27,359 bases of DNA from a virus, in the IMG/VR virus record IMGVR_UViG_3300008267_000277, positions 1 through 27,359 of that record; one strand, given 5' to 3'. The translations under genes and the position numbers were made by a program. The notes under the pieces are model-generated. The model was not told where the DNA came from. It worked only from the letters and a program-made list of their open reading frames with translations, and searched no databases. Numbering within the stretch: position 1 is the first letter of the stretch; the number at the start of each line of letters is the position of its first letter. Positions 2,763-25,888 of this stretch are shown here, piece by piece.

Positions 2763-3509
2763 ATGACAAAATCTAATTTAACTAGTGATGAAAATATTGA
2801 GTTAAAAAAGAAAGGTAGAAAACCAAAACAAGCAAATTATTTCGATGTTCAAGAGGAAATGGCGGTTATAGATTATTTAACCGCCAAAACTTTTGAAGAA
2901 AAGAATCGAATTTATAATGATTTTCTTAGGAAACCTTTAGATAAGATGATATCTTCAATTATTAGAAGATACAAATTATATAGAAAAGATATGGATTTTT
3001 ATGAAATCCATATAGACACACACTCATTTTTAATGACCAAAATTGATAAGTTTAAACCGGCTAAAGAAAAAAAGGCTTATTCATATTTTGGTACAATATG
3101 TAAGAATTATTTGATGGGTCAAATAATTAAAGACCAAAAAGAAACAAATAGAAAAATTTCTTACGAAGATATTTCTTCTGATTTAGAAAATAGTGACCGA
3201 TTTTCTTATGACATTGAAAATGATAATATCGATACTCAAAGCATAATTACTAACTTATTATTAGAATTAGATTTGTTTATTAAAAATGAAAGTTTAACTG
3301 AAAATGAGGTGAAGTTAGGTCAAGCACTTTATGAGTTATTCGATAATTATGAAAGTATTTTCATTGGTAATGATAATAATAAATTCAATAAAAACATCGT
3401 CCTATTATCATTAAGGGAAATGACTAATTTATCAACCAAAGAAATTAGAAGTTCAATGAAGAAATATAAAGGTGTTTATTACACATTAATACAAAAAATG
3501 GTTAAATAA
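2763..3509 (+). CDS. T4 gp55-like late-transcription sigma factor
   Basis: 248 residues. Residues about 55-140 look like sigma region 2 of the gp55 family seen in T4-like phages: FLMTKIDKFKPAKEKKAYSY (89-108) continues into FGTICKNYLMGQIIKDQKE (109-127). In T4, gp55 directs host RNA polymerase to late promoters and depends on the sliding clamp. A basic N-terminal patch (KKKGRKPK, 15-22) precedes this. Unlike the short T4 protein, this one has about 100 further residues, with SLREMTNLSTKEIRSSMKKY (about 215-235) reading like a helix-turn-helix of region-4 type. It lies in the glycosyltransferase/structural operon. It is the obvious candidate to read the ATATTTAT boxes upstream of structural genes in this window. 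Confidence 0.8.
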   Translation: MTKSNLTSDENIELKKKGRKPKQANYFDVQEEMAVIDYLTAKTFEEKNRIYNDFLRKPLDKMISSIIRRYKLYRKDMDFYEIHIDTHSFLMTKIDKFKPAKEKKAYSYFGTICKNYLMGQIIKDQKETNRKISYEDISSDLENSDRFSYDIENDNIDTQSIITNLLLELDLFIKNESLTENEVKLGQALYELFDNYESIFIGNDNNKFNKNIVLLSLREMTNLSTKEIRSSMKKYKGVYYTLIQKMVK

Positions 3510-3900: not shown

Positions 3901-5840
3901 TGGCTGACTTAAATTCTAAATATCAAGAAGTTCAAGACAAAGTTACCTCTACCAAAAACTATAAAAAGTTAAAAGGTGATTATGATAATTTAAAAAAAAA
4001 GGCAGGTAATGCATTCGAGAAATCTAAAGCAGGAACTACTGAAGCTTTAAATAAGTTAAATAAGGGTGCTTCCGACGCAGCTCAAACTTTGAACAATTTA
4101 CAAAATCAAGCGAAAAGTTATGAGAGAAATTTAAAAAATCAATTTGAACAACTTTTAGATATTAATAATATAACCGGCGGTAAAGGTTCTAATTCAATTA
4201 GTTATATAAAAAGACAATTAGTTAAAACTTTAAAAAACATTGAGCCTAAAATAGCTGAAATATTATATGAAGAATCATTAAAAGCTGTAGGATGTGACCA
4301 ACAACAAACCTTCACCCAAGAATCTATATATGTTAAAGTTAGTGCGATTGATTTAGGTCAATTACTTAAAATTGACCCAACTACAAAATTAGGTCGAGTT
4401 TTATATGAAAAAGAACCTGTAATCATTCAAACATATCCCTTCTCGATGAATAGGGAGTTATATCAATTAATTCAATCAGGTAATGATTATTTTACAGATA
4501 ATGGACGTTTTTATAATGGTAAATCAGGACAACCATTATTCAATATAAAATTTGTTGAGTATGATAATTTAGGTAGACCAGGGCCTTGGTATAGAGTTGA
4601 CATTAAAAATAGAGTCGGTGTAAATAACGTTGGTGAATGGTTAGTTGATTATTATAGAACTATTAAAGTATTTGATTATCGTAATACGGTATCTTGGATA
4701 CTTGAAGCTATGTTGGGTATCATATCAATTAAAGGTGAGATAGGTGTTAGTAAAATTGAAGATGTTAGTAAATTTCAATTAATAATTCAAAGAATTCTTG
4801 GGTTATGTTTTGATAATAGAAAAGAAATTGATGTTAGTGGTGTTGCTAAATTATCTGAATATGATGATATAGATGATTCATTTTTCCAATTCACTGAAAT
4901 TGATTTAAGAAATTTTGACCAAAAAATAACAAACATTAAGAATGGTGTTGTTGAATTTGAAACGTGTGATAATGTGAAATTACCACTAAATACTGAATCT
5001 ATAATTGACTTGTTAGATGAAATAACGTTTGTTGATGGTGATTCTGATGAGAATTTAATTAACGATATTAGTAAAAAAATTGCTAGTAATCCAAATTGGA
5101 GAGGTTATGCAATTAACGGTAGTTTAGAAGCTGAATTAGATTTAAACTTTGTTAAAAATTTATCGAAAGGTTTGGTTTTATCGTTATTATCCCCAAAAGT
5201 ATTATTACCAATTTTCACTATGTTAGAAGCTATAGGTCAGGAAGGTTCTAAATTTATTAATGATTTCAATGATTTTATGAGGGTTTACCGGACATTTGTT
5301 AAAAACATTGTGTCTAAAATCGGTGCTATTTTTGTTAAAGAACTTTTTAATATTATTAAAAAAGACATTAGAAATTTAATACAAAGTGTTGTTATTGATT
5401 TAGCCAAAGAAAAAGCTGATAAACGAATAATCATCATATTAAAACTAACACAATTATTAATCACGGTTGCACAATTTGTGAAAGATTGGAGAGAATGTAA
5501 AAGTGTGGTTGATGAATTATTATGGTTATTAAAAATATCAACATCAGGATTAAGTGGTGATATACCATTACCATTATTAACCGCAACTAAACTTCTCGAT
5601 GGTTTTTCTGATGTTAGAGCGTATATTAATACTATAGGTGAATTACAAAAAATTGGTATATCAACAGGTGATATGCCTGATGGTAGTCCTAATTTAACAG
5701 TATTAAGTATGTTTGCACAAATTAAAGGGGTATCACAAGAACAGAATGAAAATAGTAAAGCTATTATTGCAATACCACCATTAACTATAACACCGATTGG
5801 TGTTACTTTACCACGTAAAGCTTACGGAAAAGGAATGTAA
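3900..5840 (+). CDS. Large putative virion/baseplate structural protein
   Basis: 646 residues. Residues 1-90 are a charged coiled-coil-like region (NNLQNQAKSYERNLKNQFEQ near 65-85). A mixed alpha/beta region (about 120-400) follows with several aromatic segments (PGPWYRVDIKN). Residues about 420-560 are long amphipathic helices, including LSKGLVLSLLSPKVLLPIFT, and there is a Pro-rich end (IPPLTITPIGVTLP). There is no signal peptide and no clear transmembrane span. It is translationally coupled to the 125 aa gene upstream and lies two genes before the gp5-like baseplate protein, so a baseplate or tail-associated structural role is the best inference. I do not recognise a named family. Confidence 0.6.
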   Translation: MADLNSKYQEVQDKVTSTKNYKKLKGDYDNLKKKAGNAFEKSKAGTTEALNKLNKGASDAAQTLNNLQNQAKSYERNLKNQFEQLLDINNITGGKGSNSISYIKRQLVKTLKNIEPKIAEILYEESLKAVGCDQQQTFTQESIYVKVSAIDLGQLLKIDPTTKLGRVLYEKEPVIIQTYPFSMNRELYQLIQSGNDYFTDNGRFYNGKSGQPLFNIKFVEYDNLGRPGPWYRVDIKNRVGVNNVGEWLVDYYRTIKVFDYRNTVSWILEAMLGIISIKGEIGVSKIEDVSKFQLIIQRILGLCFDNRKEIDVSGVAKLSEYDDIDDSFFQFTEIDLRNFDQKITNIKNGVVEFETCDNVKLPLNTESIIDLLDEITFVDGDSDENLINDISKKIASNPNWRGYAINGSLEAELDLNFVKNLSKGLVLSLLSPKVLLPIFTMLEAIGQEGSKFINDFNDFMRVYRTFVKNIVSKIGAIFVKELFNIIKKDIRNLIQSVVIDLAKEKADKRIIIILKLTQLLITVAQFVKDWRECKSVVDELLWLLKISTSGLSGDIPLPLLTATKLLDGFSDVRAYINTIGELQKIGISTGDMPDGSPNLTVLSMFAQIKGVSQEQNENSKAIIAIPPLTITPIGVTLPRKAYGKGM

Positions 5841-9130: not shown

Positions 9131-9138
9131 ATATTTAT
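9131..9138 (+). promoter_or_regulatory. Candidate late-promoter octamer ATATTTAT
   Basis: A perfect ATATTTAT lies 16 nt before the ATG at 9155 and 4 nt after the previous stop. AATAAAAAC follows at the same offset as at 7639. The repeated arrangement in two consecutive intergenic spacers is the clearest pairwise evidence for the motif. Confidence 0.5.
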
Positions 9139-9154
9139 AATAAAAACCAAAATT

Positions 9155-9322
9155 ATGTCAAATGTAAGTGCAAATACTGAAAATACTATATGTATAGTTG
9201 ATTGTAGTGGTAATACAAAAACCATAAACCCTCCTCATCCTGTTTTCTCAGACCAAACAGGTGGAACAGTAACCCAATTGAATTTAGTTCAATTAGGTGG
9301 AGAAAATGGATTATATTCTTAA
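9155..9322 (+). CDS. Small putative virion protein, 55 aa
   Basis: An intact 55-codon frame from ATG 9155 to TAA 9322 fills the space between two longer genes. Residues 13-17 contain CIVDC, then a polar stretch, NPPHPVFSDQTGGTV (25-39), and a C-terminal LNLVQLGGENGLYS. The regular spacing (28 nt after one gene, 6 nt before the next), the upstream ATATTTAT box and the non-random composition support a real gene. The two close cysteines could form a disulphide or bind metal. A minor structural role is likely from the context; no family was recognised. Confidence 0.55.
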   Translation: MSNVSANTENTICIVDCSGNTKTINPPHPVFSDQTGGTVTQLNLVQLGGENGLYS

Positions 9323-9328
9323 ACGTAT

Positions 9329-9640
9329 ATGAAAAAAGTTATTAAATTAAATGAAACCCAATTGATTACTATTATTAATCGTGTGGTTAAAGAACAAGAA
9401 GAAAAACGTTATATGTTTTTCTCAAATTTAGAACAAATAAAAAAACAAGTTGAAGAACTACTTACTCTAAATGAAGATGAGGTAACTGAAATTTTAGAAA
9501 ATGGACATGATTGGGCTCAAGACCATTTAGCAACGGCTAAAGAAAGTATTGACCAAGTTTATGAATTTCTAACCAAAGAATCAGAAGATGAGGTTATGTT
9601 GGAAAATAAAAAAACTAAATTGAAAAAACAAACAAAATAA
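9329..9640 (+). CDS. Small putative packaged protein with N-terminal targeting peptide
   Basis: 103 residues. The N-terminus MKKVIKLNE|T has the form of a T4-type capsid-targeting sequence: a short basic peptide ending in LxE, the signal cut by T4-like prohead proteases. It continues QLITIINRVVKEQEE, nearly matching the C-terminal peptide of the 135 aa protein encoded at 10394-10801. The rest is acidic helix with LTLNEDEVTEILENG and HDWAQDHLATAKESIDQVYE (about 48-82), ending in a Lys-rich tail. It begins 6 nt after the 55 aa gene and is followed 3 nt later by a terminator, so it closes the plus-strand structural unit. The packaged-protein role is inferred from the N-terminus; the mature function is unknown. 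Confidence 0.6.
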   Translation: MKKVIKLNETQLITIINRVVKEQEEKRYMFFSNLEQIKKQVEELLTLNEDEVTEILENGHDWAQDHLATAKESIDQVYEFLTKESEDEVMLENKKTKLKKQTK

Positions 9641-9643
9641 ATT

Positions 9644-9670
9644 AAAAAGGGTGTAAAAACCCTTTTTTTT
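9644..9670 (+). terminator. Intrinsic terminator ending the plus-strand structural block
   Basis: AAAAAGGGT pairs with ACCCTTTTT around a GTAAAA loop and runs into eight T's in total. It starts 3 nt after the stop of the 103 aa gene. Confidence 0.85.
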
Positions 9671-9686
9671 ATAACCTAAAAAGATG

Positions 9687-9694
9687 TATATTTG
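9687..9694 (+). promoter_or_regulatory. Host-type -7 box TATATTTG with possible leaderless start
   Basis: TATATTTG matches the Bacteroidota primary-sigma -7 consensus TAnnTTTG. It lies just after a terminator and ends 4 nt before the ATG at 9699, so transcription would begin at or next to the start codon. No clear -33 TTG element is visible in the T-rich DNA upstream, which keeps confidence moderate. Confidence 0.45.
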
Positions 9695-9698
9695 TATC

Positions 9699-10142
9699 AT
9701 GGAAACAAATACTAAAAACATCGACATCGTTAGTCATAAAATTAAACGTCTGTTTCAGACAGTTGGAATTAAATTTATAAGACTATTAACACCTAAAGAA
9801 GACCAAAATAAAGGTGAGTTTGAATCTGAATGTATTTCAATATGTAAAAATCTTATACATAAAGATAATACTAAACTACTTATTTCCCCAATTTCCAAGA
9901 AAAGGTATATTAAAAGTGATGAAAAACAAATTTTCATTATTATGGAAACGGGACAATTAACCATCGTTAACCATAATTATAGTTACAACATCAACGTACT
10001 TCCAAAGTCGTATGACAAATTAATTTCATTATTCGATAATGAAGTTGAGAAAAGACGACAGAAAATGGAAGATGAAATACGTTCTAATGTAAAACACTCA
10101 TTGTCTAACATTTATCAAAACATTATCAATGAAAAAGTTTAA
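9699..10142 (+). CDS. Hypothetical protein, 147 aa
   Basis: I take the ATG at 9699 as start because it directly follows a TATATTTG box; an in-frame ATG at 9684 lies upstream of that box and would add five residues. The protein is basic at the front (VSHKIKRLF) and has a middle beta-rich part (LLISPISKKRYI, QIFIIMETGQLTIVNHNYS). A charged C-terminal helix follows (DNEVEKRRQKMEDEIRS). No membrane segment, Cys cluster or catalytic motif is visible. It is separated from the structural genes by a terminator and has a host-like promoter, so it may be expressed earlier in infection. It overlaps the next gene by 14 nt. Function unknown. Confidence 0.6.
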   Translation: METNTKNIDIVSHKIKRLFQTVGIKFIRLLTPKEDQNKGEFESECISICKNLIHKDNTKLLISPISKKRYIKSDEKQIFIIMETGQLTIVNHNYSYNINVLPKSYDKLISLFDNEVEKRRQKMEDEIRSNVKHSLSNIYQNIINEKV

Positions 10143-10377
10143 TAATTTATTATATCTCGGTGTATTATGTTTTTTAATACCAATAATTGTTTTTATTATT
10201 TTAACATCTAATTTTAAAAATAGGTTTACTAATAAGACAATTGATACTGAAATCATTTATGACACTATAACGGTTAAAAATACCACATATGATACTGTAG
10301 TCATTAAAAAATATGTTTACGATACCATTAGGAAAAAAACACCTAAAAAAATCATATCTAATGACACTTTAAACTAA
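10129..10377 (+). CDS. Single-pass membrane protein with YDT repeats
   Basis: 82 residues. After MKKFNN comes a strongly hydrophobic helix (LLYLGVLCFLIPIIVFIILT, 7-26), then a polar tail with three related units: YDTITVKN, YDTVVIKK and YDTIRKK. The layout (short cytoplasmic start, one membrane span, beta-rich tail outside) fits an inner-membrane-anchored protein with a periplasmic domain. A role in lysis (spanin-like) or envelope modification is possible, but neither is shown by the sequence. It is coupled to the previous gene by a 14 nt overlap and ends at a bidirectional terminator. Confidence 0.6.
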   Translation: MKKFNNLLYLGVLCFLIPIIVFIILTSNFKNRFTNKTIDTEIIYDTITVKNTTYDTVVIKKYVYDTIRKKTPKKIISNDTLN

Positions 10378-10379
10378 TT

Positions 10380-10411
10380 AAAAAACCCAATCGTTATTGA
10401 TTGGGTTTTTT
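10380..10411. terminator. Bidirectional intrinsic terminator between convergent genes
   Basis: A 13-bp stem (AAAAAACCCAATC with GATTGGGTTTTTT) closes a GTTATT loop, with T-runs on both strands. The plus-strand 82 aa gene ends just before it, and the stop codon of the minus-strand 135 aa gene lies inside it. Confidence 0.85.
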
Positions 10412-10801
10412 ATTATATTGTTCATTAATAACTCTTTTAATGATTCTAATTAAATCATCTTCTGTTAATTTAATTATTTTTTTATTTTTACCTGGTGTTT
10501 GATTAATATTATTCCCATCATCATCACTAAATGTTGAATATGGGTTTCTTTTAATATAATCTGTAGCTTTTTTTGCTTGTGATTCTATTTTCTTAATCTG
10601 AGACCGTCTTTCGTCCATTTTCCCGTCATAACTATCGTATTGTAATAATGGACTATCATAATCGGATAAAGAGATGTCAAACGGTTGTAATGACGTTTTT
10701 TTGAATGGTCTTAAACCCGGTTGTAATGGTGAAATATAAGAACCTCTACCCCCTGAACTATCGGAGGTGGCTTCATTTAACTTGATTTTATTATTTTTCA
10801 T
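10394..10801 (-). CDS. Putative packaged/prohead protein, 135 aa
   Basis: The N-terminus MKNNKIKLNE|ATSD looks like a capsid-targeting peptide with an LxE|A cleavage site, similar to the FLINE|ATSE site of the capsid protein. The middle is low-complexity and polar with Tyr/Asp/Ser (LSDYDSPLLQYDSYDG) and a basic helix (RRSQIKKIESQAKKATDYIK). The C-terminus has KIIKLTEDDLIRIIKRVINE, close to the N-terminus of the 103 aa protein. It has its own ATATTTAT box 14 nt upstream of the start. I infer a small protein carried into the prohead and trimmed there; what it does after delivery is unknown. Confidence 0.6.
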   Translation of the reverse strand: MKNNKIKLNEATSDSSGGRGSYISPLQPGLRPFKKTSLQPFDISLSDYDSPLLQYDSYDGKMDERRSQIKKIESQAKKATDYIKRNPYSTFSDDDGNNINQTPGKNKKIIKLTEDDLIRIIKRVINEQYNKKPNQ

Positions 10802-10815
10802 TTATATTCTTTATT

Positions 10816-10823
10816 ATAAATAT
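10816..10823 (-). promoter_or_regulatory. Candidate late-promoter octamer ATATTTAT
   Basis: Read on the minus strand, ATATTTAT lies 14 nt before the start at 10801 and is followed by AATAAAG. The reverse strand of the same spacer also serves the plus-strand gene at 10833, so the 31-nt gap may hold divergent promoters. Confidence 0.5.
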
Positions 10824-10832
10824 TTTTAATAT

Positions 10833-11060
10833 ATGGAAGAACAACAAATTTTTGGTAAATTATTTAATAGAATACCATTATTAACCGAAAATCATATCGA
10901 TATCCTTTTACAGACAATGGATAAAGAAACCTCAATTTACTATCTAACACAAGCCATTTCATACGCATATGAAATGGGTGTGTTTTCTATTGGTGAAGTT
11001 GAAATATTATCTAAAGCAATACGAATCTCTAATCGTAATCCTGATGAAAAACAAAATTAA
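10833..11060 (+). CDS. Hypothetical protein, 75 aa
   Basis: A small helical, mildly acidic protein that I do not recognise. Its core LTENHIDILLQTMDKETSIY (17-36) is followed by a run of helix (YAYEMGVFSIGEVEILSKAI, 45-64). There is no membrane span or metal-binding cluster. It is an isolated plus-strand gene between two minus-strand ones: it starts 32 nt from the divergent start at 10801, and its stop overlaps the stop of the convergent gene by 4 nt. The LTE near residue 19 is not at the extreme N-terminus, so it is not counted with the targeting-peptide proteins. Confidence 0.6.
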   Translation: MEEQQIFGKLFNRIPLLTENHIDILLQTMDKETSIYYLTQAISYAYEMGVFSIGEVEILSKAIRISNRNPDEKQN

Positions 11061-11575
11061 ACATTAGATTTAAATGCATCTAATCCATATCCTTGAGTAC
11101 CTGAATCATAAGCTGTTTGTTCAGGTGTTAATGGTTTATTAGGTTCAGGGACTTTTATATCTTCTTCAGAGTTAGCAACAACATCAGATGGCTTAAATTT
11201 AACTGATTGTTGTAATTTAAAATTTTCACCTTGTTTAGCCCACTCTCTACGAGTATTTGGTCCACACATACCATAACCTTTTTTAACGTCTTTTTTAAGA
11301 CCATCGGGGTATTTAGGAACCCAACCTTTAACATTTATATCTAACCAATCTTGAAATACCATCACCTCTTCTTTAGTACCTTTACCTACAGGACATGGTG
11401 TCTGTACCGGCTTATTAGTAACCTTTTTAGGTTGATTATTTTGAGGTAAATAAGTTATAGGTCCTGTTTTATAACTACTATTTTGTTCACTTAAATATTG
11501 TCGTTCAGTGGCTGTTTTATGTAACGATAAAATCCTTTCTTTTTCGGATTCGTTAATTAAAAATTGTTGTTTCAT
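11057..11575 (-). CDS. Putative packaged protein with peptidoglycan-binding-like domain
   Basis: 172 residues. MKQQFLINE|S at the N-terminus resembles the T4 capsid-targeting peptide and ends in the same FLINE signal as the capsid cleavage site. Residues 10-31 (SEKERILSLHKTATERQYLS) are a charged helix followed by a polar linker. A domain at about 60-115 begins CPVGKGTKEEVMVFQDWLD and ends GYGMCGPNTRREWAKQG. The FQxWL ... GYGxxGPNTxxxW pattern resembles PG_binding_1-type repeats (xxLQxxL ... GxFGPxTxxA), with two cysteines that could pair. A cell-wall-binding virion protein is a reasonable inference. It has an ATATTTAT box 16 nt upstream. Confidence 0.6.
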   Translation of the reverse strand: MKQQFLINESEKERILSLHKTATERQYLSEQNSSYKTGPITYLPQNNQPKKVTNKPVQTPCPVGKGTKEEVMVFQDWLDINVKGWVPKYPDGLKKDVKKGYGMCGPNTRREWAKQGENFKLQQSVKFKPSDVVANSEEDIKVPEPNKPLTPEQTAYDSGTQGYGLDAFKSNV

Positions 11576-11589
11576 AATTTATATTTTAA

Positions 11590-13320
11590 CTATAAATATC
11601 GTATATATTTAAAAAGACCACAATCCCATATTTTACTATAACCTAATTCAGTTGTTAATTCTTTTTCACTTTTACTGAAATCTAAATTGGGATATTTTTT
11701 TTTAAGGTTATTTTTACCAAAACCAAATTTATGGTATCTTTTATATTTGTTAATTTTTGAGTTATAATAACAATATGATGGTTTTGTTATTGAATCTAAA
11801 CTAAAACCTAAACTTATATAAAAATTATTATCGGGGTCAATAGTCCACCTTCTATCGGCAAAACTAATTATAGTTTTTGGGTTATATTCATTTATAAAAT
11901 ATTTTAAAAATTTTGACCCTAACCCTCTAATAACATATTCTGATTTTGTCGCATACCGACTTAATTCATACTCCCCTTCGGTGTTTTTTGTCATATTCCT
12001 ATTTGAATTAAAAGTCATAATACCAACTAATTCTTCTTTATAAAATGCACCATAAAATATATCGGATTTATCAGACCCTTGTATATGATTAGAATCTAAA
12101 AAATAGTTTTTTTCTTCTTTAGATATTTTTTTAATTATTAAATTTCTCCCCCCAATTTTAATTCCTGTGTTAACTTTTAAAATATGTTTTAGTTTTATTT
12201 TAACTAATTCTTTATTATTAACCCATTCATCTTCAAATATGTGTATTAATTTATAACCATGTTTATAACAATCGATTGTTTTATTCAAATGATAATTCAT
12301 GGTTTTTCCCATAGATTCGGTATGATAATATAATCCATTGTATTCTATACATACCTTAACTTCATCAATAATTAAATCAATCTCTTTACCATCTAACAGT
12401 GTTCTATTTTTACCTTTATCGACTTTAAACCCTAAACTTTCAATAAATTCCTTAACCTCAGTCTCACCTTTAGAAGTCCAAGTTGGTGTTATAGTTAAAT
12501 TTAATTTTTTAGTAATTTCACTTAATGTGTTGGAGATATTTTCTGAAATGATTCTTTCATTAGGAAACATTAACTTATATTCTGAAGTTGTTATATTATG
12601 TTTGGTTTTTAAATGAGTATTTGAAATTGTTTTCATTTTTTCATTACATAATTTACAAACCACATGATTTTTAATATCTAATAATTCTTTTGATTTTATA
12701 ATTTTCGGATGGTAATGAGAATCCAATGGAAATTTATATAGATACTCTTCAATTGAAATATTATGAACATTACTGATATGTGATTCAAAACAACCTGTTT
12801 TATTTTTAACGTCAGTCGTTGTCCAATCACACAATTCACATTTTCTTATTTTTACCTTTTCAATCTTAATGATTTCAAAATATTCCTCAAACCATTTTTT
12901 TTTATTTAACGCTTCGTATTTTTTTCTTTGGTAATTGTTTTCAGGTATCCAAACATTTTCATAGTTATCAATGATATGTTTAGTTAATTTACCGGATAAA
13001 TTATTAGGGTCTTTAATGATACTATGTGTTTTTTTACATTTAGCAACTAATTCATATTCATCATCCGAATAACGTTTTATTTTAGATGATTCTATAATAG
13101 AACTATCACCGGTTTTTACTTGACCACCTCGATTATTAATTAATACGTTATTATCTAATAATATTTGACGTATCTTTTTATGACCTACTTTAAATTTTTC
13201 ACCTAATTTATGAGTACTCGGAATCTCTGTTTTATATAATAAAATTATATTTTCGATATCCTCTTTAGTCAAATTTGTTTTCATAATATTAAATATAGTA
13301 AAATTATTATCATAATCCAT
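11590..13320 (-). CDS. EDxHD/VSR-type homing endonuclease with zinc fingers and GNAT-like domain
   Basis: 576 residues from the upstream ATG; an ATG 12 codons later (13284) is the likelier start because it follows an AT-rich promoter-like box and begins MKTNLTKED. Domains in order: helix-turn-helix (about 17-60); zinc finger 1 with C161, C164, H181, H186; zinc finger 2 with C222, C225, H236, H241; nuclease at about 284-380 with EIDLIIDE, then EYNGLYYHTE (326-335) and HIFEDEW, the pattern of VSR-related phage homing nucleases. A C-terminal region (about 390-560) follows with FADRRW, which I associate with Mom-like GNAT domains often fused to phage homing enzymes. It is a free-standing mobile gene inserted between the capsid terminator and the 172 aa gene. 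Confidence 0.8.
   Translation of the reverse strand: MDYDNNFTIFNIMKTNLTKEDIENIILLYKTEIPSTHKLGEKFKVGHKKIRQILLDNNVLINNRGGQVKTGDSSIIESSKIKRYSDDEYELVAKCKKTHSIIKDPNNLSGKLTKHIIDNYENVWIPENNYQRKKYEALNKKKWFEEYFEIIKIEKVKIRKCELCDWTTTDVKNKTGCFESHISNVHNISIEEYLYKFPLDSHYHPKIIKSKELLDIKNHVVCKLCNEKMKTISNTHLKTKHNITTSEYKLMFPNERIISENISNTLSEITKKLNLTITPTWTSKGETEVKEFIESLGFKVDKGKNRTLLDGKEIDLIIDEVKVCIEYNGLYYHTESMGKTMNYHLNKTIDCYKHGYKLIHIFEDEWVNNKELVKIKLKHILKVNTGIKIGGRNLIIKKISKEEKNYFLDSNHIQGSDKSDIFYGAFYKEELVGIMTFNSNRNMTKNTEGEYELSRYATKSEYVIRGLGSKFLKYFINEYNPKTIISFADRRWTIDPDNNFYISLGFSLDSITKPSYCYYNSKINKYKRYHKFGFGKNNLKKKYPNLDFSKSEKELTTELGYSKIWDCGLFKYIRYL
11592..11599 (-). promoter_or_regulatory. Candidate late-promoter octamer ATATTTAT
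   Basis: On the minus strand it lies 16 nt before the start at 11575 and overlaps the last codons and TAG stop of the homing endonuclease gene, so the 3' end of the mobile gene carries or preserves this box. Confidence 0.45.
13289..13296 (-). promoter_or_regulatory. Promoter-like box before homing endonuclease (TATATTTA)
   Basis: ATATTTAA on the minus strand, preceded by T to give TATATTTA, ends 4 nt before the ATG at 13284. It is one base from both the host box TAnnTTTG and the ATATTTAT octamer. The spacing resembles the possible leaderless start at 9699. Confidence 0.3.
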
Positions 13321-13394: not shown

Positions 13395-15206
13395 TTATCT
13401 CAATTCTTGTAAATCAAATGTACGAACACCATCAACAGTGATTTTAGCGTAGAATCTGTTATTAACCATTTTCTTCGCGTATCTTGTCATAATACCTTTA
13501 ATAGGTGTGAAGTTAAATGGATTGTACATTGTAGGTGTTAATTGTAATGGTACATACGGTGCGTAGATGTAACCAGTGTCTAACAATGAAGTACCTTTAT
13601 GACCAATCAAAATTGTGTTTGATGGGAAGTAAGGGTCACGGTAAACTTGGTAACGACCAGCTAAAGTACCTACTCTTTCGATACCCATGTTGTATTGGTC
13701 TTGTTCAGGAGATGCGTTAGATACGTGGAAATATTCTAAATCATCAAAAATAGCTGAAACTTCAGAAGAAACAACAATCCAGTTAGCTCCACCTCTTAAA
13801 GTAGATTTGTGGATTTGTGCTGACAATTGGTTAATTGCTGTAATCAAAGTTTGGTTCCAATCTTTTTGTGTATATGAAGTAGTTAAATTTAAACGTCTCC
13901 ATCCGTTGTAATCCCAACGTAAGTTCCAAGCCGCACCTTTACGTAAATCACGTAAAATTTCACGGTCAATCTCAGCCGCAACTTGTTCAGATAATAATGC
14001 TGTCAATTCAGCTTCAGCATCGATGTTGTGGAACGCCGCAACGTCTTGTGCTAATTCAGGAGACCATTGTGCTCTTAATTTTCTTTCTGTTACAGAAACA
14101 GTAACTGATTCTAAATCGAAAGAAACTTCACCAATTTTGTCTTCGAATTCTAATTCTTCATAACGTCTGAAAACAGATACGAAAGAAGTGTTAGTAGCCG
14201 CACTTGTGATAGTTGTACCAGTGTATCCGTCTAAAGTATCAGCACCACAATTAGCACATACAGGACAAGATAAGTCAACTTCTAAATAGATACATCCGTC
14301 AGCGTCACAAACGTTTTTGAATGAACCACCGTTTCCTGTTGAAGCCCAAGTTGTAGTTGTAGTGTTACCGTAAGAAACGATACCTTTACCATATTGTTGA
14401 GTAACAACACGGAATAATAATGAACCTGTACCAACAGCACAAGGTGTGTCAGCGTCAACCGCTAAACCTGTACTTGCGATAATATGTAAATCAGATAAGA
14501 AAGCTTCAGTATCCATTTCATTTCCATCAGGTCCGATTAATTTACCAGCTCCTGTGTCAGCGAAACCACACATTTTAACGATTACTTTTCTTACATTTTT
14601 ACCATCTAATTCACCATCAGCATCAACTAATGTACCGTTAGACCAAACTTGAACTTTAGTAGTAGCTGTAATAGCTGACCATTGTCCTTTAGAATAATCA
14701 AATAAACCAGCTGGATTTAAACCTGGTTCAGCACCTTCATAAAATAAATCATAAAGATTTTTAGTGTAAGCTCCCGCTTCAGGTGCGTAACCTGCACCTA
14801 CTGCTGGTCCACTTGGTGCTCCAACAGGTGCGTAATGTGCTCCTGATGCGTTTTCAGTACCACCGTTATAACCTTGAATTTTAGGTACGAAGTAGAACAA
14901 TTTACCGATTGGTAAGTTCATAGCTTGTACTGATACGATATCGTTAGCTAACAATTTAGAAAATACACGTCTTACGATAGGGAAAACAACTGTTTCAAAA
15001 GCTCCGTTTGAACCTTCTGAAGTTGCTTCGTTAATCAAGAAAGATGCTTGGTTTTCATATAATTGTGCTACGTTTTCTCTCAAATGTCCTTTAAGGTTTT
15101 CTAAGAAACCTAATTTTTCCCATTTGTTAATAGTGTCTTCTTTGATAACTTTTAAATGTTTTAATCCGATGTTACCAACAAGACCTGATTCTAATAATGC
15201 TCCCAT
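13395..15206 (-). CDS. Major capsid protein, T4 gp23-like
   Basis: 603 residues, somewhat longer than T4 gp23. Residues 1-60 are a helical propeptide ending in QASFLINE|ATSEGS: cleavage after E60 would mirror T4 gp23, which is cut after FLTE at residue 65. Family landmarks follow: VVFPIVRRVFSKLLANDIVS with QAMNLPIGKLFYF, and later LRAQWSPELAQDVAAFHNID with AEAELTALLSEQVAAEIDRE, equivalent to the T4 segment with WSLELAQDLAA. The HK97-type core continues to the end. A cysteine-rich patch (C300, C305, C314, C317, C320; CPVCANC) is unusual for a capsid protein. It follows the scaffold gene by 30 nt in one transcription unit that ends at a strong terminator. Confidence 0.93.
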   Translation of the reverse strand: MGALLESGLVGNIGLKHLKVIKEDTINKWEKLGFLENLKGHLRENVAQLYENQASFLINEATSEGSNGAFETVVFPIVRRVFSKLLANDIVSVQAMNLPIGKLFYFVPKIQGYNGGTENASGAHYAPVGAPSGPAVGAGYAPEAGAYTKNLYDLFYEGAEPGLNPAGLFDYSKGQWSAITATTKVQVWSNGTLVDADGELDGKNVRKVIVKMCGFADTGAGKLIGPDGNEMDTEAFLSDLHIIASTGLAVDADTPCAVGTGSLLFRVVTQQYGKGIVSYGNTTTTTWASTGNGGSFKNVCDADGCIYLEVDLSCPVCANCGADTLDGYTGTTITSAATNTSFVSVFRRYEELEFEDKIGEVSFDLESVTVSVTERKLRAQWSPELAQDVAAFHNIDAEAELTALLSEQVAAEIDREILRDLRKGAAWNLRWDYNGWRRLNLTTSYTQKDWNQTLITAINQLSAQIHKSTLRGGANWIVVSSEVSAIFDDLEYFHVSNASPEQDQYNMGIERVGTLAGRYQVYRDPYFPSNTILIGHKGTSLLDTGYIYAPYVPLQLTPTMYNPFNFTPIKGIMTRYAKKMVNNRFYAKITVDGVRTFDLQELR

Positions 15207-15236: not shown

Positions 15237-16613
15237 TTATTTTATTTTAGTCATTAAGTCTTTCATTCTTAGGAATTGAGGATTTTCGTAAGTTTTAGAT
15301 TCAATCAAATTAGACGATGAACCAGTTGAAGGAGATTTTTCAATCACATTGCTGATAGACTCGTTAATTTTTTTGTTAGAAAGTTCTTCTTTGACAGTTT
15401 TGTATAGATTTTTTGATTCTTTAATAGTTTCAACACCATCAAATCTGTGTAGAATATTAATTTTCTCTTGTTTAGTTGTAGTATGTTCAGTAAACAAACG
15501 AGTAGCGTAAGCTAAGTTTGAATTAAATACTGCAACTTCATTAAGTTTATTTCTAAAAAGATTTAAGGCTTTTCTATACTCCTCATTTTTTTCTCTTAGA
15601 ATGGTTAATTCTTCAGAACTAACTTCTTCTTTGATTTTAACTCTCATTTTAGGTAAACCTTTTCTTTCAGAATAATTTCTGCTTCCGTTTCCTAATGTTC
15701 GAGCTGATTCTTTAGTTTCCGCTTTTTTAGGTTTGATTTTAAATTCACCATCAAGATTCTCACCTGATTTATCATATTCGAATCCTTTTTTAGCGTCACC
15801 GGTACCCATAGTTTTATCGGCTTTTTTATTAACTGTTTTAAATCCACCTTTTTGAGTTTTGTATGAAAAATTAGGTTTACCCATACCAACACCTTTAGGT
15901 TTAGTAGTAAGTTTAGATTCTACAACTTGTTCGTCATATTCCTCAACACCTTCTTCAGTTTCATCCATTTCAATCTCGTAAATAAATTCATCTTCAGTTT
16001 CACCTTCTTCAGTTTCACCTTCTTCAAAATTTCCTTCAGAAAAAACTCTATCGATAATATCGGTTAGTTCTTCTTCAGAATATTTTTCGTCAGATTCTTC
16101 TTCAGTCATTTCATATGATTCATCTTCTAAAGTTTCATCATATTCTGACTCTTTAACTATCATATATTCTTTTCCGGTTGAATTATCTTTAAAATTAATG
16201 TTACCAGATGTGTCTTTTTTAACAATAACTTCATCGTTATCGTCCATTAGTTCGAATACACGTAAAACTTCTTCGTCACTAATATCTTCACCTGTCAAAT
16301 CGATAGGTTCCATATCAACATCTTCTTGGTCATCAACTTCAAAATTATCAATTTCAGCTTCGTCTGATAAGTCAGTATCTTCTACTTCAGTGTCTTCTAC
16401 TTCAGTATCTTCTACTTCATCAGAGTTAACATCCATTTCCATGTCATCAATCTGTTCTTCGTCTTCTTGTTCGAATAAAGATTCTTTTACTAATTCTTTA
16501 ATTTCTGTTCTCATAGTTGAGGCCAGTATTCCTTTTGCATTTTCTTTGACAGCTTCTTCCAAGTTTTTAATTTGGATAATTGTGTCATCTACTAAAGATT
16601 TTTCGTTTGCCAT
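15237..16613 (-). CDS. Prohead scaffold/core protein (gp22-like role)
   Basis: 458 residues. A helical N-terminus (1-50, including VKENAKGILASTMRTEIKEL) is followed by an extremely acidic region (about 50-235) built partly from short repeats: VEDTE units near 70-85 and EEGET units near 200. A basic, Gly-rich stretch (about 235-320) comes next, then a long helical C-terminus with NEEYRKALNLFRNKLNEVAV. An acidic, helical, low-complexity protein directly upstream of the capsid gene and downstream of the protease is what a T4 gp22-like core scaffold looks like; in T4 it is digested by the protease during maturation. Assignment is from position and composition, since scaffolds diverge fast. Confidence 0.78.
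   Translation of the reverse strand: MANEKSLVDDTIIQIKNLEEAVKENAKGILASTMRTEIKELVKESLFEQEDEEQIDDMEMDVNSDEVEDTEVEDTEVEDTDLSDEAEIDNFEVDDQEDVDMEPIDLTGEDISDEEVLRVFELMDDNDEVIVKKDTSGNINFKDNSTGKEYMIVKESEYDETLEDESYEMTEEESDEKYSEEELTDIIDRVFSEGNFEEGETEEGETEDEFIYEIEMDETEEGVEEYDEQVVESKLTTKPKGVGMGKPNFSYKTQKGGFKTVNKKADKTMGTGDAKKGFEYDKSGENLDGEFKIKPKKAETKESARTLGNGSRNYSERKGLPKMRVKIKEEVSSEELTILREKNEEYRKALNLFRNKLNEVAVFNSNLAYATRLFTEHTTTKQEKINILHRFDGVETIKESKNLYKTVKEELSNKKINESISNVIEKSPSTGSSSNLIESKTYENPQFLRMKDLMTKIK
16375..16425 (-). repeat. Tandem 15-bp repeat encoding VEDTE in the scaffold gene
   Basis: About three adjacent units of the type CTTCTACTTCAGTGT on the plus strand encode repeated EVEDT in the acidic part of the scaffold. 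A second 15-bp duplication (EEGET) lies near 15992-16023. Both look like replication-slippage expansions of an already acidic linker. Confidence 0.7.
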
Positions 16614-16631
16614 TTATTAATATTTTATTAA

Positions 16632-16639
16632 ATAAATAT
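16632..16639 (-). promoter_or_regulatory. Candidate late-promoter octamer ATATTTAT for scaffold-capsid
   Basis: On the minus strand it lies 18 nt before the scaffold start and is followed by TTAATAAAA. A terminator for the upstream genes sits about 60 bp before it, so the scaffold and capsid genes need a promoter here, and this is the only motif-like candidate. Confidence 0.55.
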
Positions 16640-16981: not shown

Positions 16982-17710
16982 TTATCTAATACCTAAATAA
17001 TCGTTTAATTTTTTCATTAAGTCAAGCGACTTGTTAGTATTGTCAGTCACATTAGACTCATTCCTTTTTTGTTTTTCTTCTTCAATATTCTCATCGAATT
17101 TATGTCTATCATTAGGGTCTAAGAATAGATAAGCCCCAGGTGTTGAAGGTGATGAAACTAAATCAAAACAAATTAATTCAAAATCATCTTGAACTTCATT
17201 TTGTTCTCCAACCTTTTTAAGTGACCCAACTCCTCTTGATGATATACCTAATGTTACACCTTGTCTTAAATAATTGGCCGCCATATCGCCTTTTGTAGAA
17301 ACGATACCTCTTTCATGGAATCCGGGACTTGTTAATAACTTTAATTTACCCATTAAAACATTCCCATCCCACCATACTTCAGTGATAATGTGAGAAACCC
17401 TATCTAAATCAATTAATGACGATTCTGGATGATTTAATTCTGATAATGAAACACCTTTTTCAATTAATTTTTTATAGTTGTCGGCTTCTCTTTTTAATAT
17501 ACGTTCAGGATAAACTCTACCATTTCTGTTAGGTGTATTGTATTTTTGTAACACGGCGTAAAACTCAAATGGTTTTGAATGGTCTAAATTACCTTTAGAT
17601 TCATTAATCATTTTAGCATTAAACTCATGATTTGGCGATATATGACCAGCATCGTATTCAATAAGAATACCTCTCCCAACCTCAGTTGGATTTAAAACTT
17701 TTAAATTCAT
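16982..17710 (-). CDS. Prohead maturation protease, T4 gp21-like
   Basis: 242 residues. ELNHPESS (91-98) supplies the likely catalytic His94, GISSRGVGS (155-163) the likely catalytic Ser, and CFDLVSSPSTPG (181-192) a conserved Asp/Ser-Pro segment, all in the order expected of gp21-type prohead proteases. GRVYPERIL (64-72) is another familiar segment. In T4 this enzyme cuts capsid, core and internal proteins after [L/I]xE. It lies between portal and scaffold genes, as in T4. MINESKG (34-40) in its own N-terminal part may be a self-processing site. The charged C-terminal 40 residues may be removed on activation. Confidence 0.88.
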   Translation of the reverse strand: MNLKVLNPTEVGRGILIEYDAGHISPNHEFNAKMINESKGNLDHSKPFEFYAVLQKYNTPNRNGRVYPERILKREADNYKKLIEKGVSLSELNHPESSLIDLDRVSHIITEVWWDGNVLMGKLKLLTSPGFHERGIVSTKGDMAANYLRQGVTLGISSRGVGSLKKVGEQNEVQDDFELICFDLVSSPSTPGAYLFLDPNDRHKFDENIEEEKQKRNESNVTDNTNKSLDLMKKLNDYLGIR

Positions 17711-17729
17711 TTTAATGTTTTTTTATATA

Positions 17730-17737
17730 ATAAATAT
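17730..17737 (-). promoter_or_regulatory. Candidate late-promoter octamer ATATTTAT for the protease
   Basis: On the minus strand it lies 19 nt before the protease start, overlapping by one base the stop codon of the upstream 156 aa gene, and is followed by TATATAAAAAAAC. Confidence 0.45.
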
Positions 17738-18250: not shown

Positions 18251-18258
18251 ATATTTAC
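18251..18258 (+). promoter_or_regulatory. Candidate promoter octamer for bS21, one mismatch (ATATTTAC)
   Basis: It lies 19 nt before the bS21 ATG and is preceded by TAAGG. The purine-rich TAAGGA at about 18246-18251 is some 26 nt from the ATG, too far to act as a Shine-Dalgarno sequence. Confidence 0.4.
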
Positions 18259-18277
18259 ATATAAAGTCAAAAAATAT

Positions 18278-18466
18278 ATGATAGTAGTAAAAGTAGATAA
18301 AGGTATTGAAAGAGCATTAAAACAATACAAAAGTAAAATAATAAAAACGAGACAATTGTCAGAATTGGTTAATAGAAAAGAATTCATTAAACCTTCTGTA
18401 AAAAAAAGAAACGCACTTAACAAAGCTAAGTACGTTCAAAAAAATTATAATTACGAGGTAGATTAA
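18278..18466 (+). CDS. rpsU: Phage-encoded 30S ribosomal protein bS21
   Basis: 62 residues, the usual bS21 length. MIVVKVDKGIERALKQYKSK (1-20), then IKTRQLSELVNRKEFIKPSV (21-40) and KKRNALNKAKYVQ (41-53), follow the bS21 layout: a short strand, basic helix, KPSVKKR turn and second basic helix. The KPSVKKR and KAxYVQ features are those of Bacteroidota bS21. In that phylum bS21 lies next to the 16S rRNA 3' end and takes part in hiding the anti-Shine-Dalgarno sequence, so a viral copy could retune which mRNAs the host ribosome starts on. It is the only plus-strand gene inside the minus-strand head module, with its own promoter-like box, and its stop overlaps that of the convergent 238 aa gene by 3 nt. 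Confidence 0.88.
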   Translation: MIVVKVDKGIERALKQYKSKIIKTRQLSELVNRKEFIKPSVKKRNALNKAKYVQKNYNYEVD

Positions 18467-19179
18467 ATATTTTCGTTTAGAGTTTTTAATTTATAGTAAT
18501 TTAATTTATCGTAGTTTTCATTATTAACCTTATTAAGAGTCTCTATAATTGTACTCTTAGTTTTTTCATCTTGCTCAGTCTTTTCCATTTCATTTAATTT
18601 ACTAATAACACTTTCTTTTATTGTATTATATTCTTTAATTAAAATTTCATCATTAATTGAAAATATTTGAGAAAGTTCTTTCTTTTCAGATTCACTTAAC
18701 GTATTAATGTATTTATTAATTGTTTTATTAGCAACATTAACCATAGTACTAATTGGTACTTCAATAGTTTCTGTTACTAATGGAGGATTCTTTACTAGTG
18801 ATTCAGAAATGATTTTTTTAGTCTTAACTTTTTCTTCAATCGTTAAAACATTACTTGAAAATAATTTATCTATATTTTCATACGAATTTTCAACAATAAC
18901 ATCTTTAACCCAATTATTTAATTTTTTTAAATCCTCTGATTTAATAGATTTAATTGTTTTTTCATACACTGAAACTGACTCTGTGATATAATCATTCACC
19001 AATGATTCATTGATGCCTTTATTAGATGTTAAATCATCATATAGATAATATAATTTACTAATATTTTTATTTTTTAAAACTAAACTTTTAAAGTTTAATA
19101 ACTCCTCTTTAAAAGAACCTTTTTTATAAGATTCTAATAAATGGTTTTCGATTTTTGATTTTAATATTCCGAATTTCAT
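18463..19179 (-). CDS. Putative head-core protein, 238 aa
   Basis: A charged, almost wholly helical protein rich in Lys, Glu, Asn and Ser. MKFGILKSKIENHLLE|SYKK at the N-terminus carries an LxE|S site at residue 16, and further sites of the same form recur (GINESLVND near 55). It continues with LKKLNNWVKDVIVENSYENI (about 85-105) and ends in helices with ESVISKLNEMEK. It lies between portal and protease, where T4 has its small core genes 67 and 68. The layout fits a prohead core/internal component that the protease would process, although no sequence family was recognised. It has an ATATTTAT box 16 nt upstream. Confidence 0.6.
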   Translation of the reverse strand: MKFGILKSKIENHLLESYKKGSFKEELLNFKSLVLKNKNISKLYYLYDDLTSNKGINESLVNDYITESVSVYEKTIKSIKSEDLKKLNNWVKDVIVENSYENIDKLFSSNVLTIEEKVKTKKIISESLVKNPPLVTETIEVPISTMVNVANKTINKYINTLSESEKKELSQIFSINDEILIKEYNTIKESVISKLNEMEKTEQDEKTKSTIIETLNKVNNENYDKLNYYKLKTLNENI

Positions 19180-19195
19180 CTGTTTGTTTTATTAT

Positions 19196-19203
19196 ATAAA
19201 TAT
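19196..19203 (-). promoter_or_regulatory. Candidate late-promoter octamer ATATTTAT
   Basis: On the minus strand it lies 16 nt before the start at 19179, touches the portal stop codon and is followed by ATAATAAAAC, nearly the same downstream sequence as at 7639 and 9139. Confidence 0.5.
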
Positions 19204-20999
19204 TAGTCTTTTAAAAGTTTATTTAATTGTTCCTCAATATCTCCTAAAGAATTTTTACCTTTAGATAAATCAATAAAACTATCCTCATCAAATATTGAGT
19301 CATTTTCTAATAATATTTTTAAATTATCTCGATTAAATGATTCAGGTGTTACTGCGGATTCTGATGGTGGTGTACTCATTTCACCTCCCCCGAATTCTTC
19401 GCCACCTGATGGTGGTGGAGGTGGTGTTGATGACGCACTTTGTGTTGTACCTGAAGAATTACCATATAATTTATCGATATTATCAAATACACCCGTATGT
19501 GTAATAATAGTTGGTGTATTAGTTAATTCAGAACCAACTGCTTTTTCAACACGTTGTTGTTGTAAATCCAATTTAATTTCATCGTCAGAAAACCCTAAAA
19601 TATGTTTTTTAGCCCAAGATACTGAAACAGGTGCTATACCTTCAATAGGTGTTACCGCGTCTTTATAAAGTAAAACTTTTTCTTTCCAAACATCAACTTT
19701 CAATAAATCGGCTTGTGTTGATGGGTTAGTTAACATTAATGTGAAATTAGATAACTCATCTTCAAAACCCAATAAGAACAAATGGATAATTGCTATTTTA
19801 TTTAATTCAGCAATCATTGATTTTTGAATTCTATTAATAGTTCTAGCAAATCTAATATCCATTAATGACAAATCTTTACCACCACCAACAGGTTCTTCAA
19901 AACCTAAAAACGCTTTAGGAACTCTAAGAGCTGTTAACAATTTCTTTTGTATGTATTCAATATCGGCAATTTCAGATAAATTTTGTGCGCCGGCTAAAGT
20001 TTCTATTGGAGACGCTTGAGCGGCATCACGAACAGGGATAAAATAATCTTGGTCAACCGCCATTTGATTAAAACGTAAATCAACATTACCTGTTTTACTA
20101 TCAACAACTTGGTCTCTTTTAAATTTATTGGCGACACGTTGTACATATGGTTCAACATCCTTATCATCCATATTACCAACAAACACTTTAAATACACGTC
20201 TTTCAGGTGCTCTTGATGTCCTATATATTAACATAGCATCTTCAGATAATAATAATTGTTTCCAAATACGTCTAGCCTTTTCTAACATAGATGTTCCGTA
20301 AGGTAGTTTTCTATCATCACCTAATAATCTAAAATGAGCTATCTCCCAAGAATTAAATTCCATGTCTTTAATTTTCCATTTAAAACGAAGTCCCCTATGT
20401 TCAACAGGGTCTTCAACATTTTGAGTTCTAGCTGCCATACCACGTTCTAATCTTTCAATTTCGATGTTTGGTAATTGCATACAACCAATAATACCTTTCT
20501 CAGTGTCTAATTTTAAGTAAACGAAATTATCACCGTATTTACAAGTATTTCTCACCCACATAGGTAAGTTAGTATTAATGTCTAACGAATTGTTGAATAA
20601 GTCGGTTAAAATTGATTTAATACGTTTAGATTCTGAGTATATTTGTAACATATAACCATTTTGGTTAACTGTTGTTGATTCTTCGGCATAAATGTCTAAT
20701 GCTGCCGAAATTTCAGGGGTATACTCCATAGATTCGTAATCATAAAATGAAGCTAAACGTGTCGGTTCATAATATATAGCTTGAGTGTATAGATTACTTT
20801 CAATCTTAGTCCATTGATTACCTAAATAATAGGTCTGTTGTGCTTGTAATTTTTCCCGTTCATAATCTTGTTTTGATGTTGTTTTTAACAACTCATTTTT
20901 ATCAAATTTATATGTTGGGTAATCTTGATTTAGTAACGAATTAGGACCAAATGCTTGGGATAATCGTTGCCAAACTGTTAAATTTTTATCGTTTGCCAT
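19203..20999 (-). CDS. Portal protein, T4 gp20-like
   Basis: 598 residues, slightly longer than T4 gp20. The N-terminal part contains YYEPTRLASFYDYESMEYTP (about 75-94) and EISAALDIYAEESTT, the portal landmark region. The middle has WEIAHFRLLGDDRKLPYG-type residues (about 218-235) and AMLIYRTSRAPERRVFKVFV (about 255-275), typical of gp20. Toward the end VPKAFLGFEEPVGGGKDLSL (about 365-385) precedes a stem/crown region. The C-terminal 100 residues are Pro/Gly/Ser-rich (STPPPPPSGGEEFGGG) and then acidic, probably disordered. The protein forms the dodecameric DNA gate at the capsid vertex and docks the terminase. It lies 55 nt downstream of the terminase gene. Confidence 0.92.
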   Translation of the reverse strand: MANDKNLTVWQRLSQAFGPNSLLNQDYPTYKFDKNELLKTTSKQDYEREKLQAQQTYYLGNQWTKIESNLYTQAIYYEPTRLASFYDYESMEYTPEISAALDIYAEESTTVNQNGYMLQIYSESKRIKSILTDLFNNSLDINTNLPMWVRNTCKYGDNFVYLKLDTEKGIIGCMQLPNIEIERLERGMAARTQNVEDPVEHRGLRFKWKIKDMEFNSWEIAHFRLLGDDRKLPYGTSMLEKARRIWKQLLLSEDAMLIYRTSRAPERRVFKVFVGNMDDKDVEPYVQRVANKFKRDQVVDSKTGNVDLRFNQMAVDQDYFIPVRDAAQASPIETLAGAQNLSEIADIEYIQKKLLTALRVPKAFLGFEEPVGGGKDLSLMDIRFARTINRIQKSMIAELNKIAIIHLFLLGFEDELSNFTLMLTNPSTQADLLKVDVWKEKVLLYKDAVTPIEGIAPVSVSWAKKHILGFSDDEIKLDLQQQRVEKAVGSELTNTPTIITHTGVFDNIDKLYGNSSGTTQSASSTPPPPPSGGEEFGGGEMSTPPSESAVTPESFNRDNLKILLENDSIFDEDSFIDLSKGKNSLGDIEEQLNKLLKD

Positions 21000-25488: not shown

Positions 25489-25888
25489 AAACAACTTTTT
25501 TTTCAAATTCTAATACGATATCTCTCTCGTATAATTTATCTTTAACATCTTGTTCAGTTTCACCAAATTTAAAAACTAATCTTTTAACATTTTCAAAATC
25601 AACTGAATTAGTTTCTTCTTCCCAAGACAAAGCAATAACATTATCTATTGCATCTATCATTGAAAAATAATCTGATTTTTGTATAACAGTTAATAACACG
25701 TTATCACTTTTTAATGTTCCAACTTTAGTTATTAACTCTAAATCAGGTGGTAAGGGATAACCATTTGATGGTCTTGAGTCCCATCCATCACCCCATACAT
25801 TATCCAAACTATTGGAGAAAATAAATTCGTAAGTATTTTCTCCTTTGTAGTTTGGTCCTAATTCATTAACATATATTAAAAAACTCAT
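25478..25888 (-). CDS. Hypothetical phage protein, 136 aa
   Basis: 136 residues. It has a distinct start MSFLIYVNELGPNYKGENTY (1-20), then EFIFSNSLDNVWGDGWDSRP (21-40), a Pro-rich turn (NGYPLPPD), and an alpha/beta C-terminal half with VFKFGETEQDVKDKLYERDI (about 105-124). The Trp/Asp/Gly cluster WGDGWD looks like a conserved surface site. There is no membrane span and no catalytic motif that I can name. It overlaps the upstream gene by 4 nt (ATGA) and the downstream gene by 11 nt, so it belongs to a tightly coupled operon of head-associated proteins. Function unknown. Confidence 0.65.
   Translation of the reverse strand: MSFLIYVNELGPNYKGENTYEFIFSNSLDNVWGDGWDSRPSNGYPLPPDLELITKVGTLKSDNVLLTVIQKSDYFSMIDAIDNVIALSWEEETNSVDFENVKRLVFKFGETEQDVKDKLYERDIVLEFEKKVVYEN

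Follow-up and report, generated by a model that had tools for sequence, protein, structure and literature searches.

The closest described counterpart of the proteins considered here is the internal protein system of phage T4, in which the capsid-targeting sequence (CTS) comprises 10 residues; the ten-residue propeptide of internal protein III (IPIII) is sufficient for packaging and is removed by the prohead protease gp21 (PMC9026906). The bodies of the T4 internal proteins are diverse and the CTS alone is conserved (PMC3012670). The same protease cuts off the 65-residue propeptide of the capsid protein gp23 at the motif L/I-X-E, and in the prohead proteases of T4, phiKZ and 201phi2-1 the positions P3 and P1 are the main determinants of cleavage, with few others (PMC9026906). 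In the giant phage SPN3US, the propeptides of gp45 and gp225 comprise 20-24 residues, and the N-termini of gp53 and gp54 are identical (PMC10052503, PMC5694885). Here we analyse the IMG/VR virus record IMGVR_UViG_3300008267_000277, positions 1-27,359 (the window; 30 open reading frames (ORFs) counted), in which three small ORFs begin with short peptides containing [LI]-x-E. Unrelated small bodies behind a common N-terminal peptide ending in L/I-x-E, an S77 protease and a gp23 capsid are shared with the T4 system of IPI, IPII and IPIII. We consider it likely that the three proteins carry capsid-targeting propeptides cut by a gp21-like protease, and that the same few leaders are placed on dozens of late proteins in this group of very large, T4-like phages.

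The three N-termini, MKKVIKLNE|T (9329-9640, plus strand), MKNNKIKLNE|A (10394-10801, minus strand) and MKQQFLINE|S (11057-11575, minus strand), stand exactly as the original prediction had read them, and the ORFs are referred to as proteins 1, 2 and 3. The pattern proposed for them, MK-x(3-8)-[LI]-x-E-[AGST], occurs at 3 of the 30 window ORFs against 0.17 expected from 300 shuffles (p = 1/301, the lowest value this test can give), while none of 14 internal 'MK' fits it; it was also enriched in four of seven relatives. In T4 its only matches are ipII and ipIII, both annotated as internal proteins of the virion, and in S-SM2 and P-SSM4 its matches include, among a few others, T4-GC190, whose orthologue in S-SM1 was found in purified virions (PMC3037559). 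A gp21-like protease and a capsid propeptide ending in FLINE|A had also been claimed for the window, and both are present. The protease (16982-17710, minus strand) matches Peptidase_S77 (Pfam, E = 1.8e-24, 86.7 bits against a curated cut-off of 27); among the PHROGs its match is family 207 ('head maturation protease', E = 2.8e-43). The major capsid protein (13395-15206, minus strand; Gp23, E = 5e-74) has its propeptide end, FLINE60|A61, aligned opposite FLTE65|A66 of T4 gp23, with the same motif at both sites. S77 protease and gp23 capsid are encoded together in the window and in all nine relatives checked.

The junctions between leader and body were compared among orthologues. Protein 1 (103 residues) consists of a 22-residue class-A leader, MKKVIKLNETQLITIINRVVKE (9329-9394, plus strand; leader profile E = 3e-10), and a conserved helical body, RYMFFSNLEQ..., with orthologues in 26 distinct relatives. 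E22 is invariant among these (20/20 aligned and 26/26 distinct), although the leaders differ, and E9 is confined to members having the class-A leader; the cut is therefore very likely to fall after residue 22 (VVKE), and the proposed cut KLNE|T is probably wrong. Across the 26 orthologues the junction E is followed by Q, E, T or S at P1' and preceded by V, L, I or M at P3 in every case. The predicted model of protein 1 is all-helical, with moderate confidence (mean pLDDT (predicted local distance difference test score) 77), and its helix begins at residue 9, which suggests that KLNE in this protein marks where the helix starts.

Protein 2 (135 residues) has a 10-residue leader, MKNNKIKLNE (10772-10801, minus strand), with a putative cut E10|A11 placed from orthologue junctions, then a Tyr/Asp-rich unit and a C-terminal class-A module. 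The junction E is kept by 38 of 39 distinct orthologues; all of these have I, L or V at P3 and 31/38 have A at P1', while seven different residues occur between P3 and the junction E and the leaders vary in sequence and in length (10-46 residues, the longest of which may reflect a wrong choice of start). The same holds for the conserved protein adjoining terL (22896-24362, minus strand), which has a 43-residue leader ending KLNE|APIDY, as placed from orthologue junctions: in its 17 distinct relatives, whose leaders span 8-43 residues, E is present in 17/17, A at P1' in 15/16 and I, L or V (or M) at P3 in 13/16. As such, orthologous bodies behind different leaders retain [LIV]-x-E at the junction, which is the capsid cleavage-site motif.

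Protein 3 (172 residues) joins a 30-residue class-B leader, MKQQFLINESEKERILSLHKTATERQYLSE (11486-11575, minus strand; leader profile E = 3.3e-13), with [LI]xE near both ends, to a body without relatives in the collections searched, and none were found when a viral-contig collection was queried with the protein. Its leader probably ends at YLSE30. Giant-phage propeptides have redundant cleavage sites, which fits the occurrence of [LI]xE twice in class-A and class-B leaders, once at each end. The leader length of about ten residues first proposed thus suits protein 2, and in proteins 1 and 3 covers only the fronts of longer leaders. The peptidoglycan-binding-like body ascribed to protein 3 was unsupported, no such domain being detected with Pfam, and no relatives of proteins 1 and 2 were found in the PDB.

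In 80 related loci, collected via the capsid protein, the first nine residues of proteins 1 and 3 proved to open two conserved modules, which define class A (MKKIIRLTESDLTRIVKRVIKE) and class B (MKKLYFLDEEEKNRILNLHESATKRQYLSE); class B was found by regular expression at 22 N-termini. An unbiased within-genome comparison of N-termini recovered both classes and three further sets, named Ap (MKIIITESQYK), C (MNLQESIRRILREE) and D (MNLQEQISRIQSMMGLNE). Searches with profiles of these leaders identify 136 proteins across eight records (class A, 44; Ap, 39; B, 19; C, 18; D, 16). The two largest records account for 43 of 384 ORFs (G001, 296 kb and terminally redundant) and 42 of 334 (G002, 273 kb). 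The bodies behind them fall into about 100 clusters without detectable mutual similarity, 44 class-A leaders being placed on 41 body clusters and 19 class-B leaders on 17, and in an alignment of 97 leader-bearing proteins E22 is the sole nearly invariant residue. Unrelated bodies behind leaders ending in a prohead-protease motif are thereby well supported, and so is the use of the signature to find further candidate genes genome-wide. Class A, B and C profiles matched none of 2702 internal windows of the same proteomes and no reversed N-termini. The leaders were predicted to be rare at replication genes, which is true of the specific profiles (0/30); the simple pattern is unspecific and matches one of the 30. 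No profile match was found in T4, P-SSM4, phiKZ, phi14:2 or immuto, and S-SM2 and Mel-JY01 gave one weak match each. A literature search for the leader strings returned nothing, and short tblastn queries with leaders A and B against INPHARED gave no matches, a result that is uninformative as the queries were too short for so large a collection.

Leader genes of classes A and B share with head genes an AT-rich upstream motif, ATATTTAT[ATG], which may be the late promoter used by these phages. Among class-A genes 34/44 have it and among class-B genes 13/19; the counts are 34/65 for structural genes, 0/30 for replication genes and 185/1170 for others (classes A and B together against replication genes, 47/63 versus 0/30, p = 4.5e-13). 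The structural cases include the protease in 8/8 and the scaffold-position gene in 8/8. In the window, such late-type promoter-like motifs stand upstream of protein 1 and of the ORF at 9155-9322 (ATATTTATA; 9131-9139, plus strand), and, on the minus strand, upstream of protein 2 (10815-10823), protein 3 (11591-11599), the scaffold-position gene (16631-16639) and the protease gene (17729-17737). The T4 late promoter, TATAAATA, had been tried first and was found at 12 of 40 leader genes, the shared motif being ATATTTAT instead. In the window, the motif lies upstream of late genes at 3509, 7631 and 9131 on the plus strand and 892, 10823, 11599, 16639, 17737, 19203 and 22840 on the minus strand.

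Protein 2 is a short member of a multi-unit family. Its C-terminal class-A module (KKIIKLTEDDLIRIIKRVINEQ; 10406-10483, minus strand), matched by regular expression, is 58% identical to the protein 1 leader over residues 2-27 and was retrieved independently in a homology search with protein 1 as query; the chain stops shortly after it. Longer relatives contain a leader followed by three units, in the order GSY..P, AGxYNGP and LAVWFG..KPKG, the last being basic and Cys-containing, and some add a class-A module with a further body. The second unit is preceded by [LIVM]xE in 16/16 cases. Before the third, [LIVM]xE plus one residue is found in 29 of 30 distinct sequences; the background frequency is 1.9% per position. 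In G001 the LAVWFG unit is the only one, directly following a leader (MIIDDTIKKILRE|DLAVWFG), and elsewhere it lies within longer chains. These boundaries suggest that members of the protein 2 family are cargo polyproteins cut at [LIV]xE in the prohead. To our knowledge, a polyprotein cargo cut apart within the phage head would be a new arrangement. T4 Alt is processed at both termini (PMC9026906), and its C-terminal cut is a precedent for chain-end processing as in protein 2.

From these features we infer a course of capsid targeting, cutting, packaging and delivery in which a leader of 10-30 residues, of standard type in proteins 1 and 3, would bind the assembling head core and thereby enclose the protein in the prohead. 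The gp21-like S77 protease would then cut after [LIV]-x-E and free the body, as for the capsid propeptide, and the same few leaders would serve dozens of unrelated late proteins. One gene may deliver several small proteins in the protein 2 family, where [LIV]xE sites and sometimes a class-A module lie between units. The leaders thus appear to work like the T4 CTS system while not belonging to its sequence family, since no homology to the T4 CTS (MKTYQEFIAE) was found and no leader profile matched in T4. They also differ from it in being mostly longer (14-30 residues) and of several types, in marking about 40 proteins per genome in place of three internal proteins plus Alt, and in that the motif divides units within one chain. 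The scale appears unprecedented and would extend a T4 trick known from a few proteins to more than one tenth of a genome. We suggest more tentatively, with the odds somewhat against it, that this is a general cargo-loading system of about 40 late proteins per genome, polyproteins included, with interchangeable leaders and with many of the proteins delivered as host takeover or counter-defence factors.

Several observations weigh against the packaging and cleavage of these proteins. Of the 65 genes that homology identifies as structural, none has a leader of these classes; in protein 1, the predicted helix continues unbroken across E22, which makes that residue less accessible; P1' after class-A leaders is mostly Q or E, as opposed to A in gp23, protein 2 and the terL-neighbour family; the upstream motif is found at only 28% of class Ap genes and at roughly one in two genes of classes C and D, so that these classes may differ from A and B; several of the eight records are fragments, the per-genome counts being best for G001 and G002; and no virion proteomics or cleavage data for the phage group of the window were found in the literature. 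The helix and the P1' residues would also suit leaders that are uncut docking helices taking late proteins elsewhere, to the tail, membrane or lysis machinery, with [LIV]xE marking a helix start and the end of an amphipathic helix: class-A leaders are predicted to be helical from residue 9, [TND]-E-x-[DE] suits a helix N-cap, and some leader-bearing bodies match endolysin, peptidoglycan-binding or lysozyme families. We regard this as unlikely, because three families keep P3 and P1 of the junction while the remainder of the leader is free to change in both sequence and length, internal unit boundaries have the same motif without a helix module, and the motif is identical to the gp23 site.

The choice of P1' residue is also the ground for a narrower form of the packaging reading, in which the leaders are packaging signals and cutting is confined to junctions of the A type ([LIV]xE|A in protein 2, the terL neighbour and gp23), classes A and B being retained. 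Alanine does predominate at those junctions, as counted above, with Q, E, T or S in the protein 1 family and class A; published prohead proteases, though, show few determinants besides P3 and P1 (PMC9026906), and we hold such a restriction to be rather improbable. Far less plausible is a device at the DNA or mRNA level, such as a recombination hot spot or translation start context, with functionless peptides. The DNA upstream of leader genes is also similar and AT-rich, and leader-bearing genes are often clustered, but same-genome leader copies have diverged far at synonymous sites (pS 0.50-0.57) while remaining conserved as protein (pN 0.19-0.26), which indicates selection at the protein level and places the function in the peptide, and the module is also found inside proteins and at their ends.

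Among other phages, the cyanophage protein T4-GC190 and further S-SM2 proteins (MKTLGQFLAE|A, MKSFFQFLSE|A) likewise have a short LxE-ending peptide on unrelated bodies, but these are few per genome and their leaders are short and T4-like. In phiKZ, 201phi2-1 and SPN3US, also large phages, many head proteins are cut after a short x-E motif; the protease is of family S80, the motif is S/A-x-E, the propeptides are mostly long and no leader set on dozens of proteins is known, nor did the within-genome N-terminus test recover recurrent leaders in phiKZ. The Flavobacterium phage immuto reuses leaders, MENFDLKKFLVENKLT..ILKE and MKKSQLRQIIKE, on seven proteins (gp003, gp076, gp077, gp080, gp092, gp094 and gp095), of which two are encoded immediately upstream of terL, and differs in having its own leader sequences, fewer such proteins and a cultured host. 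Its leader loci lie at 1803-2318, 102294-104354, 113188-113946 and 117631-118931 of NC_055915, where some proteins are annotated with unrelated enzyme names; no virion proteome of immuto was found in the literature.

Leader A is virus-specific. It was confirmed in at least 497 IMG/VR stretches among 600 candidates and had three matches in 84,980 prokaryote genomes, two of which are phage-like contigs of one metagenome-assembled genome: their ORFs bear leaders, and Gp23 is matched elsewhere in that genome; the third (L298), outside any listed ORF on the matching strand, was taken as chance. Sixteen large contigs hold 1-16 copies each, with S77 above the curated cut-off in 13. The contig G013, without S77, looks like a near twin of G012 and, judging from matching leader spacings, would end before the protease gene; G015 and G021 have neither an S77 nor a gp23 match and may be fragments or other phages.

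It has long been asked which of the many uncharacterised proteins of large phages are carried in the particle. Should the leaders prove to be packaging signals, sequence alone would suffice to recognise cargo genes in thousands of uncultured phages; this would yield candidate host-takeover and counter-defence proteins, as well as various natural tags with which proteins of choice could be loaded into phage heads. When 97 leader-bearing proteins were scanned with Pfam, PHROGs and PADLOC, few functions emerged, with single endolysin, peptidoglycan-binding, AAA and kinase matches. HExxH was weakly enriched (5/136 versus 13/1268, p = 0.024) and was set aside. These metallopeptidase-like motifs occur in leader-bearing or multi-unit proteins, namely a protein 2 relative (L018/G009), G001 50379-50831, G002 18256-19506 and 241346-241993, and G005 5218-5703 and 10285-11595. 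G001 also has about 12 paralogues (L083-L097), mostly behind class-Ap leaders and scattered genome-wide, with the body ...IVGSLDKTFEIFDIKEPMDFLNLF.

The head genes of the window form a minus-strand cluster in T4 order: terL, portal, core protein, an uncharacterised ORF, the S77 protease, a 72-residue ORF, the scaffold-position protein and gp23. The acidic core or scaffold protein in the gp22 position (15237-16613, minus strand) was assigned by position and by homology to immuto gp067; it lies 3' of its late-type motif and between protease and gp23, as in T4 and immuto. A homing endonuclease (11590-13320, minus strand; PHROG 3339, E = 2.4e-83; HNH-related) separates the capsid gene from protein 3, and in T4 the homing endonuclease segD is likewise located after gp23. 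An ORF at 2763-3509 had been guessed to encode a gp55-like sigma factor, which was unsupported, a PDB search giving no relatives. Beside the terL-neighbour gene, the protein at 24376-25506 (minus strand) contains long, near-identical, proline-rich repeats (PSQPSHPQDDPLRPGRRTKEKPAPQAGETETAPVIKPAEPKI).

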